64,000 nucleotides of DNA from Myxococcota bacterium (GTDB lineage Bacteria; Myxococcota; UBA727; JAHDBA01), in assembly GCA_020630615.1 (NCBI GenBank), contig JAHDBA010000002.1:125112-189111 (forward strand), read 5' to 3'. Position numbers and translations under genes: made by a program. Within the stretch, counting starts at the first letter, position 1. Every line of letters starts with the position of its first letter. Shown here in pieces: positions 41,684 to 45,254 of the stretch. The notes beneath the pieces were generated by a model. It was given only the letters and a program-made list of their open reading frames with translations. It was not told where the DNA came from and did not search any database.

Positions 41684-42176
41684 ACACGGTCAATGGTCTC
41701 AAAGGGACCTAACGTACATGTCACGTGCTCTTGAACTGGCTGACCATGCCGCTTCACTTGGGGATGTTCCTGTCGGTGCCGTCATCGTTCTGGATGATCA
41801 AATTATCGGTGAAGGGTGGAATACACGGGAAAACCAAAGGCGCCCAACAGGCCACGCAGAGATCATGGCGATTGAGTCTGCAGCCTTGCATCTTGCAGCA
41901 TGGCGACTTCTCGACACCACGATGTATGTCACCTTGGAACCGTGTTTTATGTGTGCGGGTGCCATTGTGAACTCGCGCATCACTCGAGTCGTGTGTGCTG
42001 CTCTAGACCCAAAAGCTGGTGCAATGGTCTCGAAGGGGCATGTGGGCACCACACCCGATTTGAATCACCAAGTCGCTCTCTCAACAGGTTGCCTTGCCGA
42101 GCAAAGCTCGAGGCGCTTGAAGGATTTTTTCAAAGCCCGGCGCGCAGAGATTAAAAAGTCAAAAGCTCTTTCGTAA
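41673..42176 (+). CDS. tadA: tRNA-specific adenosine deaminase TadA
   Basis: TadA makes inosine-34 in tRNA-Arg(ACG). The zinc/catalytic motifs are GHAEIMAIESAA (His61, Glu63) and LEPCFMCAGAIVNSRI (Cys91, Cys94). The N-terminal region DVPVGAVIVLDDQIIGEGWN is typical. The product has 167 residues, the family's usual length. Its start overlaps the end of the thiD-like gene, suggesting translational coupling. Confidence 0.95.
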   Translation: MVDEHGQWSQRDLTYMSRALELADHAASLGDVPVGAVIVLDDQIIGEGWNTRENQRRPTGHAEIMAIESAALHLAAWRLLDTTMYVTLEPCFMCAGAIVNSRITRVVCAALDPKAGAMVSKGHVGTTPDLNHQVALSTGCLAEQSSRRLKDFFKARRAEIKKSKALS

Positions 42177-43647
42177 TCGATTCGACTTCACCTTCAAGTT
42201 CGGTGTCGACAACACGATCAGTCGCGCGTTGACATAGCTCGGTACAAAGATCTTTTTGCATTAGATTCCTTGCCATAGAAGCGCCTTGAAGGAGCAAATG
42301 AACCGGTGTCGCAAAATCTAACATTTCACGTAAGGTGCGGGCTGCATTCGCCGGTTCTTGTCGTTGTGTATAAAGATCGACGAGAGAGAAGCGAGTCGCC
42401 ATATCCATAGGCGTCATGTCCAAGAGCTTGGAAAGAGCGTCTCGTGTTTCGTCGGAGTATCCGCTATTACGGTAGGATGCATGGGCTCGAAGGCTCAAGA
42501 ATTCAATCCATTCTTGACTCAAAAGTTTATGACTTTCGTTCGAAAAAGATTCAAGCTCTTCGATTTTTCCATTGGCAAAGTCCATTTCATATTTGAGAAT
42601 CTGAAGACTGCTTTGATGCTCTTCTTCGACTTCGTCTTCAAGCGTAGACAAAAGGATTTCCGCCAAGTCATGTTGGCCAAGTCGAATCATCAGTGCACAT
42701 CGATCACGAACAACTTGAAAAGAGTTTGGATACCTTTCGACAAGAGCTTCCAAATGCGTGAGAGCATCGCCATAATGTTGGAGTTCAATAAGAAGCATGA
42801 CAAGGGCACGCCCCAACGGATAGTTGTTGGGCGCCAAAACACTTGCCATCTCAAAGAATGTGCCGGCCCGTGCATGGTCATTTTGGGACAGTGTGATTCG
42901 GCCGAGCAAAACCCTCGCGTACGCATGATCGGGGTTTGCAACACAGAGTGAAGTTAAAAGATCAGAGGCGTCTCCGTATTCTCCTTTGGCCCATGCAAAT
43001 GCGGCTCGAGGAAAGCTTCTATCGTTTTTCCCGCTCAATTCCTTGTTGAGAGCAAGCTCAAGTTTTCGAACCAAAACAGCGTCGTCCTGCCCAATTAGTA
43101 AAACCAAGACGAGGTTCTCAATAAGAAGCGAGATGTTGTGCTTTTCATGGGGAGCGAGAGCATCATGCGTCGATTCATCGACGCTCATGCCAAACACATC
43201 CGCCGCAAGTGTGATAAGCGAAACGTCGGAGCCGTGAACCTCGTGCGCCAAATGTTGGGACAAAGCAAGCAGGACGTCCCGGATACTGTCAGGCTCTTCG
43301 AATAAACGAATGCTAATTTTAATTAGGTTGTTGACCATCGAAGAAGCAAGGTCGCTGAAGCCTGAGATAAAGTTCTTGTCTTGGGCTTGCTCTTTGAGTT
43401 TCGTGGGTTCTCCGCGCCCAAATACGGCGCACAACCTTTGAGTGAAGAGCGCACCATCTTCAAGCGACTCTTCAGGGTCTTCCAGGGCTTCACTTCGCTG
43501 AACTCTGGCTGTGAAACTTCCTTTAATTGAGTCAAAGACCTCAAAAGATGCCCTTGGTTTTTCATGGCCTTGACTCAAGGCCGTCAGGGTTGTTTCAGTC
43601 GGTAACCCAAAAACACGATATCGGGACGATGTAGAAAGTTCATGCAT
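42151..43647 (-). CDS. TPR-repeat protein, cytosolic
   Basis: The protein of about 498 residues, from ATG 43647, begins MHELSTSSRYRVFGLPTETT. About 180 residues without known domain are followed by helical TPR units (YARVLLGRITLSQNDHARAG, ALTHLEALVERYPNSF, HDLAEILLSTLEDE). No signal peptide is seen. Longer starts would run into the HAD gene. It is the third gene of the mutH-HAD-TPR set. TPR arrays mediate protein contacts; the partner is unknown. The C-terminus overlaps the convergent tadA end by 26 bases. Confidence 0.82.
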   Translation of the reverse strand: MHELSTSSRYRVFGLPTETTLTALSQGHEKPRASFEVFDSIKGSFTARVQRSEALEDPEESLEDGALFTQRLCAVFGRGEPTKLKEQAQDKNFISGFSDLASSMVNNLIKISIRLFEEPDSIRDVLLALSQHLAHEVHGSDVSLITLAADVFGMSVDESTHDALAPHEKHNISLLIENLVLVLLIGQDDAVLVRKLELALNKELSGKNDRSFPRAAFAWAKGEYGDASDLLTSLCVANPDHAYARVLLGRITLSQNDHARAGTFFEMASVLAPNNYPLGRALVMLLIELQHYGDALTHLEALVERYPNSFQVVRDRCALMIRLGQHDLAEILLSTLEDEVEEEHQSSLQILKYEMDFANGKIEELESFSNESHKLLSQEWIEFLSLRAHASYRNSGYSDETRDALSKLLDMTPMDMATRFSLVDLYTQRQEPANAARTLREMLDFATPVHLLLQGASMARNLMQKDLCTELCQRATDRVVDTELEGEVESITKELLTF

Positions 43648-43696
43648 CAGATAAAGACTATGTCTTCCTAGGGTGAATATCGACTTCTTGACCCAT

Positions 43697-44464
43697 TTAT
43701 TCTCGAGTTGCTTGAACTTTTGCGAGTGCTTCCAGAACCCCAAGACTTGATGGGTTGTCGCAAACAAATTTCGGTAGAGAATCCAGCTGCTGCAGGCGAT
43801 CGTTCGAGCGAACCACGTTGGCCACTCCAACACTTTTTGGCAAAAGTTTGAATGCAGATGCATCGTTTGCAGAATCTCCCAAATAAAGAATCTCTTTCGC
43901 CTTAAATTTCTTGAAAAAGAGTTCTTCGATTGCGGCACCCTTTGTGTGTGAGCCGATCCATAGATGAAAATGAATACTCGAATAGGTAAAGTTGAGACCC
44001 AAAGCCTTGGCCTCGTTTTCAATCGTGCAAAGTTCTTCGCGTGACTGAAGCGAACTTATCTCGTATGCGCGATCGTATATTCGTCCGCAATTATCAAGTG
44101 ATTCCACGATATGACTTTTCGTTCTAAAGATCTCTTCGAGTGCTTTGTCACGTTCTTTAAAGGCGTGCGAGCGTTCACTACGGTCCGGAATACTATGCCA
44201 AACATCAATAGACTCATCTCTTTTTAATAATGCTGCGGCTCCATTCTCAGCAATCGCAAAGTCGAGGTTGAACCATTCCAAGAGTACCTGTGCCCATGCG
44301 AAAGGCCTGCCGGTCACAATGCCTTGAAAGAGTCCCAACTCTCGTGCGCGCTCAAAGCACTCCAATGTTGTCGCCTGAAAGCGTCCATTTTGAGTCAATG
44401 TTTCGTCAACGTCACACGCGATCATTTGAATGGATGTCAAATCCGCTTGTTCAAGGGCTTGCAT
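43697..44464 (-). CDS. HAD-superfamily (type IIB, Cof-like) phosphatase
   Basis: The HAD hydrolase has motif I MIACDVDETLTQNG (nucleophile Asp), motif II IVTGRPFAWAQ, the lysine motif KGAAIEELF, and motif IV LYLGDSANDASAF. The cap lies between II and III, with IAENGAAALLK as in sugar-phosphate and sucrose-phosphate phosphatases. ATG 44464 has GAGG six bases upstream; ATG 44485 overlaps mutH more. It overlaps the mutH stop by 14 bases, so coupled translation is likely. Substrate is unknown. Confidence 0.9.
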   Translation of the reverse strand: MQALEQADLTSIQMIACDVDETLTQNGRFQATTLECFERARELGLFQGIVTGRPFAWAQVLLEWFNLDFAIAENGAAALLKRDESIDVWHSIPDRSERSHAFKERDKALEEIFRTKSHIVESLDNCGRIYDRAYEISSLQSREELCTIENEAKALGLNFTYSSIHFHLWIGSHTKGAAIEELFFKKFKAKEILYLGDSANDASAFKLLPKSVGVANVVRSNDRLQQLDSLPKFVCDNPSSLGVLEALAKVQATRE

Positions 44465-45254
44465 GCGAACCTCGAGATAGGCCAAATGTTTTGAGTTCTT
44501 CGGGCGAGCCTAGAGATTGGGTCACCAATGTCTTTGTTAAAGAGGGGCGAAGGTAGAAACCAGCGCTTTGCACACTCTGAGCGTTTCCATTTGCGAGTAC
44601 GATCTCAACTTGGTCGCTGGCCTTACGGCCTTTCGGGCGAACTTGAAGCCAAGTTCCTCGTGTTGCTGAAAGCGCATCTCGGACACCGTGGTAAAGCGCA
44701 TTGATGTGTGACTCCCAATCTTCACGCAAGATACTTTCTTGCTCAGGGGTTGGGCACCACAAGAAGGGGTAACCAATACGATCTTTGAGGCTGGGGGAAG
44801 ATTCTTTTCGGAGTACAGGGACCCAAAGAATTCTCTTCATTTTCGACCAGGCTCTCGACTCAACCCATTGATAGCTACCAAAATCAACTTGTGGAACACG
44901 GCAAATGTAGGTGCTTTCAAAAATCAGACCATCTTCTCGAATTGGAATCGATTTAACTTCGACCCCAAGATGTAAAAAATCTGGGCCACTCTGGCTGGGG
45001 TTATCAATTCGCAATGCCTTTTCAATCACTTCACCTTGCCAGCCTTTGTGTTTTGGTTGGTAACTCAAATGTTGTGATTGGCTGTGTTGCGCATCGATCA
45101 AACATTCAATATTTTCGCCTGCGATTTGATCAGCGATCATGAACAACTCTTGGATATTTGTCGGTGTTTTTTGAGAGCCTGTATTGCGAACGCCAAGACT
45201 CAACTGACTTAAGTCCTTAACTTTCTTCGATTGTAACTCTTGGTTGAGGGGCAT
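44451..45254 (-). CDS. mutH: MutH-type mismatch-repair endonuclease
   Basis: MutH nicks the unmethylated strand at hemimethylated GATC in MutS/MutL-directed repair. The restriction-fold catalytic set of E. coli MutH (Asp70, Glu77, Lys79) is matched by Asp92, Glu99 and Lys101 in GPDFLHLGVEVKSIP. Other collinear matches are HKGWQGEVIEKAL, ILWVPVLRKE, RIGYPFLWCPTPEQESIL, REDWESHI, TRGTWLQVRPKG and AGFYLRPSLTKTLV. At 267 residues it exceeds E. coli's 229 by an N-terminal extension. The ATG has AGGA upstream. It heads a set with the HAD and TPR genes. mutS, mutL and dam are not in the window. Confidence 0.93.
   Translation of the reverse strand: MPLNQELQSKKVKDLSQLSLGVRNTGSQKTPTNIQELFMIADQIAGENIECLIDAQHSQSQHLSYQPKHKGWQGEVIEKALRIDNPSQSGPDFLHLGVEVKSIPIREDGLIFESTYICRVPQVDFGSYQWVESRAWSKMKRILWVPVLRKESSPSLKDRIGYPFLWCPTPEQESILREDWESHINALYHGVRDALSATRGTWLQVRPKGRKASDQVEIVLANGNAQSVQSAGFYLRPSLTKTLVTQSLGSPEELKTFGLSRGSHASP

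Follow-up and report, generated by a model that had tools for sequence, protein, structure and literature searches.

The window analysed here, a stretch of 64,000 nucleotides, comes from a Myxococcota genome (G000; 2.83 Mb in 48 contigs, 93.5% complete and 1.6% contaminated). Its minus strand carries an ATG-initiated open reading frame that we identify as mutH, followed by genes for a HAD phosphatase and a TPR protein (Table 1). The MutH pathway has been thought to be confined to some gammaproteobacteria, where MutH is paired with Dam and MutL.

Table 1 Genes and predicted functional residues at the mutH locus (window coordinates)
Feature	Position	Strand	Basis or remark
mutH, predicted methyl-directed mismatch-repair nicking endonuclease, 267 aa	44451..45254	-	Pfam, NCBIfam and PDB matches, residue mapping, AF2 model, fold search
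K70 codon (E. coli K48)	45045..45047	-	residue mapping
Catalytic D92-(X6)-E99-X-K101 (E. coli D70, E77, K79)	44952..44981	-	alignment; invariant in all 104 homologues
QVRPK, residues 204-208, start of recognition loop (E. coli R184/P185/K186)	44631..44645	-	residue mapping
FYLR, residues 233-236, with Y234 (E. coli Y212)	44547..44558	-	residue mapping
HAD-IIB phosphatase	43697..44485	-	overlaps mutH 3' end by 35 bp; pair conserved in G001 and G002
TPR protein, mechanical ORF with TTG start listed	42151..44022	-	ORF list; neighbour comparison with G001

The product of the frame matched the Pfam MutH model PF02976 over its full length (84.2 bits, E 7e-24; cut-off 23) and two NCBIfam MutH models at 180 and 155 bits, which lie below the equivalog cut-offs of 243 and 230. 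When the PDB was searched with the sequence, the only significant matches were MutH structures (2aoq, 2azo and 1azo; E ~1e-32). An AlphaFold (AF2) model built from 44 sequences (pLDDT 84.5, pTM 0.83) superposed on the MutH-DNA complexes 2aoq (TM 0.89 target-normalised, 0.74 query-normalised) and 2aor (TM 0.87, target-normalised). In an alignment of 104 homologues, E. coli K48, E56, D70, E77, K79 and E91 correspond to K70, E78, D92, E99, K101 and E113 of the window protein, and K116, R184, P185, K186 and Y212 to K138, R206, P207, K208 and Y234. E. coli F94 is replaced by Y116, a position at which 42 of the 104 homologues have tyrosine; all the catalytic and GATC-reading residues tested are thus kept or conservatively changed. 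In a base-editing assay the activity of E. coli MutH was abolished by K48A, R184A and Y212S, and the GATC contacts in 2AOQ were attributed to F94 and the loop 184-190 (PMC10940147). Because the counterparts of the E. coli residues are kept, the protein most likely reads GATC, and by every feature testable in the sequence and the predicted fold it is a true MutH. The original prediction of a MutH homologue with a catalytic D-E-K set is therefore borne out, the counterpart of E56 being present as well.

The HAD phosphatase and TPR genes lie on the strand of mutH, as the original prediction described, and mutS, mutL and the methyltransferase genes are indeed elsewhere, on other contigs. The mutH-HAD pair is common to three genomes from two families (f1 and f2), namely the window genome, G001 and G002, and the TPR gene also accompanies it in G001. 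The overlap between the two genes (35 bp in the window, 41 bp in G001 and 4 bp in G002) suggests that they are translationally coupled, and the phosphatase is probably a mere operon partner of mutH. The TPR protein probably starts downstream of 43697, because the TTG listed for it falls within the HAD gene and its counterpart in G001 starts only past that gene.

The original prediction had raised the possibility of a Sau3AI-like restriction enzyme. This reading, widened here to any endonuclease of defence or restriction, draws on a common fold and on a weak match to the NCBIfam Sau3AI model (41 bits), but the MutH models score four times as high, and the AF2 model fits Sau3AI 4pxg with a TM of only 0.36 target-normalised (0.61 query-normalised). 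We built a MutH tree with Sau3AI as the outgroup; the Sau3AI sequences lay outside all MutH proteins (support 100), and the window protein did not group within the Sau3AI-type enzymes. Two Sau3AI family proteins lack counterparts of R184 and Y212 in their catalytic half, no methyltransferase was found among the neighbours of the window mutH, PADLOC gave no match for its product, and a restriction enzyme would leave the loss of the MutL nuclease described below unexplained. Taken together, profile scores, tree, fold, residues and genomic context rule out a Sau3AI-type restriction enzyme, and we reject this reading as extremely improbable. The other suggestion, horizontal acquisition, would in its strongest form make mutH a recent gammaproteobacterial import with little role. 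The Myxococcota proteins do stand close to the MutH of Chromatiales and Legionellales in the tree, but those of the window's order form one clade (SH-aLRT 96) adjoining other Myxococcota, and placing all Myxococcota proteins in one clade was not rejected (p-AU 0.85) and gave a better likelihood than the free quick search. Moreover, the mutH-HAD synteny is conserved across f1 and f2, the catalytic residues are kept over deep divergence, and the nuclease of MutL has been lost. A recent import is therefore very unlikely, and tree and synteny indicate that MutH is inherited vertically within the window's order, while an ancient transfer between Myxococcota and gammaproteobacteria may have taken place in either direction.

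Two further explanations were discarded. A gammaproteobacterial contig contaminating the genome bin is ruled out because G001 and G002 have the mutH neighbourhood too and the MutH proteins of the order form a clade. The genome belongs to Myxococcota, as had been proposed, since the MutH and D12 methyltransferase loci of G003, from the same order, are found unchanged in Myxococcales bacterium isolate SP234. The branches of the window and G001 proteins are long in the MutH tree, but fast evolution is not a sign of decay, as the neighbours and MutL are equally diverged between the window genome and G001 (identity 34% for MutH, 29% for HAD, 33% for TPR and 36% for the MutL N-domain).

MutH is not restricted to the window's order. 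PF02976 matched 22 of the 146 sampled Myxococcota genomes, in 19 of 78 genera. Among the best 80 loci of a scan of GTDB genomes, which is not a census, MutH was also found in two strains of Sorangium cellulosum, in Lujinxingia vulgaris and in several Polyangia MAGs, and many gammaproteobacteria were among the matches listed. An open literature search returned no relevant paper on MutH in Myxococcota or deltaproteobacteria, which may exist elsewhere, and the literature searched does not credit Myxococcota with methyl-directed repair.

We then consider the partners of MutH. A profile search of the window genome detected MutS (789 bits) and MutL (301 bits). Its only MutL (L003; 686 aa, on contig C28) is followed by miaA as in E. 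coli and has lost all three endonuclease motifs, DQHA(X)2E(X)4E, ACHxxxR and CPHGRP, which are also missing from the MutL of G001, G002 and G003. We compared 53 Myxococcota MutL C-termini with that of E. coli, 28 from MutH-bearing genomes with a readable C-terminus and 25 from genomes lacking MutH. The motifs were lost in 16 of the 28 and in none of the 25 (Fisher p 2e-6, a value that ignores kinship). The 16 are, besides the four genomes just named, G016, G017, G026, G027, G033, G039, G043, G049 and G094 together with those of L103, L109 and L131, the loss being partial in G026 and G094. The other 12, with intact motifs, comprise the f4 genomes, G058, G105, both Sorangium strains, Lujinxingia and three MAGs. 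Mapped onto a MutL N-domain tree, the loss requires nine changes, at least six of them on supported branches. Phylogenetically independent pairs agreed with an association between the loss and MutH in 3-5 cases and disagreed in none, numbers for which the sign test is underpowered (p 0.06-0.25). Genomes that have Dam and lack MutH (e.g. G018, G034, G044, G050 and G139) keep the MutL motif; therefore, the loss is tied to MutH and not to Dam. In gammaproteobacteria the MutL nuclease is absent where MutH is present (PMC8744996). Judged from these C-termini, that pattern recurs in Myxococcota, because the motif loss was found in genomes with MutH and not in those without it.

Some individual genomes deserve mention. 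In G023 (family f13), where the PF02976 search found no MutH, MutL (L047) has the degenerate motifs DPHAALER, ACHAARR and CTHG (CTHGTVV) and was counted among the 25 keeping motifs. Very small genomes (0.3-1.8 Mb, beside relatives of 5-8 Mb) occur in the window's order in family f5 (G005, G007, G009 and G011-G015); they are without MutH, but a nuclease-type MutL is kept in those read, and the beta-class methyltransferase described below in most. In Sorangium cellulosum (L300, L301) and Lujinxingia vulgaris (L278), MutH and a GATC-type methyltransferase coexist with a MutL whose endonuclease is intact.

A canonical Dam was not detected in the window genome (no TIGR00571 match at 1e-5), nor did a Dam pass the curated cut-off in any sampled genome of its order. 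Of the 14 MutH-bearing genomes outside the order, 11 had a Dam above it; the Dam of Sorangium reached 281 bits. The genome-wide search for a dam-like methyltransferase, which the original prediction had proposed, yielded only a D12 protein. A PF01555 search found a beta-class methyltransferase in most Dam-less MutH carriers. That of the window genome, the orphan L220 on contig C39, has no restriction enzyme among its neighbours, and enzymes of its type are 65-76% identical across families of the window's order, far above the conservation of MutH. Among the 146 genomes, 34 carried a Dam over the cut-off and 98 the beta-class family, with one genome shared (Fisher 5e-20 by genome and 5e-4 by family, large families driving much of the count). 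Outside family f13 there were 33 and 34 carriers and no overlap, and in the one shared genome (G129) Dam is at threshold, with 115.5 bits. Such exclusion is the pattern expected if one GATC methyltransferase replaced another.

The specificity of L220 was approached through its relatives. By bit score its best plasmid match, with 39.8% identity, comes from the DpnII-type operon of pSRQ700, where it is the second methyltransferase. With the PADLOC model that best fits this plasmid protein, PDLC03371, L220 scores 263, against 225 and 209 for CcrM-type models. Similarly, the beta-class enzyme of G003 scores 267 with the model fitting DpnA and 240 and 225 with CcrM-type models. In its Loop-45 region L220 has PNxxCRxFTxSTE, which is common to DpnA enzymes and absent from CcrM, where the corresponding loop reads the TC half of the site (PMC6787082). 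In a methyltransferase tree, the enzymes of G094 and Lujinxingia group with the DpnA-type (support 98/97), and for this reason are very probably GATC enzymes by their sequence, but those of the window's order form a separate clade (96/96) outside both DpnA and CcrM. The Loop-2B of L220, a loop that in CcrM reads the first bases, differs from both. The family is found in members of the order that lack MutH as well, and therefore has another duty, and in four MutH-bearing genomes, most of them fragmented (G006, G010, G046 and G051), neither a Dam over the cut-off nor a beta-class enzyme was found. On balance, we think it somewhat probable that the L220-type enzyme writes the GATC strand mark.

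The frequency of GATC in the window was uninformative as a sign of methylation state: 295 sites were counted against 311 in dinucleotide shuffles, that is, no depletion, with a mean spacing of 214 bp and a largest gap of 1.5 kb (observed/expected 0.80 under a trinucleotide model). Window-wide, CTAG was the most depleted 4-base palindrome (observed/expected 0.59; GATC 0.80, GANTC 1.01).

With L220 as the writer of the mark, the pathway would run as follows. As in E. coli, MutS would detect the mismatch, and MutL would then activate MutH, which would nick the new strand of a hemimethylated GATC while that strand is still unmethylated, creating an entry point for excision. Since the MutL of the window genome has no nuclease of its own, the nick would be supplied by MutH. 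The strand mark would be N6-methyladenine deposited, Dam being absent, by the beta-class orphan, a relative of DpnA and CcrM. In this scheme we infer GATC methylation, the GATC specificity of L220, the MutL-MutH contact and the nicking of the new strand. That MutH acts in MutL-dependent repair is, from the comparative data, very likely, and methyl-directed repair in another lineage, which the original prediction had listed among its options, is well supported by the nuclease-dead MutL, the phylum-wide association of MutH and MutL and the conserved adenine methyltransferase. The statement as a whole, that a second phylum uses methyl-directed MutS-MutL-MutH repair in which a beta-class enzyme stands in for Dam, we consider to be favoured by a modest degree.

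Two alternatives retain MutH but change the mark. The MutH-MutL repair could be real and the mark written by the orphan D12 (FokI/LlaI-like) adenine methyltransferase of the window genome, or lie in a non-GATC motif with MutH re-tuned. This D12 enzyme (L002, positions 1243-2274, adjoining dnaJ on contig C23) is the sole PF02086 protein of the genome and is kept across most of the window's order with 45-62% identity, even in a 0.3 Mb genome. However, the annotated enzymes closest to it are FokI/LlaI and ulcer-associated methyltransferases, which are not known as GATC enzymes, the recognition residues of the window MutH match those of the GATC-cutting E. coli MutH, and the D12 enzyme coexists with Dam in G099, unlike the beta-class family. 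We hold this reading to be unlikely. In the other alternative MutH would nick without any methylation and, in the way suggested for MutL nucleases, the strand would be picked out by nicks already present or by the replication clamp. The searches of the window genome gave no enzyme with proven GATC specificity, which would suit this idea. In dam cells of E. coli, however, MutH cleaves the two strands and causes double-strand breaks (PMC12907096), so that a GATC mark should exist in the window genome, and a conserved adenine methyltransferase is present whose distribution is complementary to that of Dam. Methylation-free nicking seems still less likely than a D12-written or non-GATC mark.

As to the D12 protein itself, its identity as a Dam was ruled out (25.6 bits to dam, and kinship with FokI/LlaI), and a PDB search with it gave a chance match only. 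Its closest phage relative is in Thermus phage phiLo (50.6% identical). Retention in the single-contig 0.3 Mb genome (G012) suggests that it has an essential duty, because so tiny a genome keeps it.

A second phylum with MutH, a nuclease-dead MutL and a swappable methyltransferase would be a natural replicate of the evolution of the pathway. We see an even chance that methyl-directed repair is old and widespread in Myxococcota, with the MutL nuclease lost several times in lineages that have MutH, Dam and unrelated beta-class enzymes interchanging, and the enzyme of the window's order being a previously unrecognised strand marker. Cultured Myxococcota such as Sorangium cellulosum, in which MutH and a methyltransferase stand beside an intact MutL nuclease, may represent an intermediate state, and the switch from MutL-nuclease to MutH repair becomes directly testable in cultured organisms.

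The system resembles that of E. coli and H. influenzae MutH (PDB 2aoq and 2azo) in about 31% identity, the fold, the D-E-K set, the equivalents of K48, R184, K186 and Y212, and a paired MutL without the endonuclease motif. It differs in belonging to a Myxococcota genome without Dam, where a beta-class adenine methyltransferase is found instead, and in having tyrosine in place of F94. The type II restriction enzyme Sau3AI is also a GATC cutter with a MutH-like fold, but it has two MutH-like domains in ~475 aa and a linked methyltransferase, whereas the catalytic and recognition residues of the window protein sit together in a single domain of 267 aa. On the methyltransferase side, L220 is a beta-class enzyme (PF01555) that has DPPY and its Loop-45 motif in common with DpnA (M2.DpnII-type, GATC), but it is an orphan chromosomal gene outside any DpnII operon and belongs to a clade apart from both DpnA and CcrM (GANTC).
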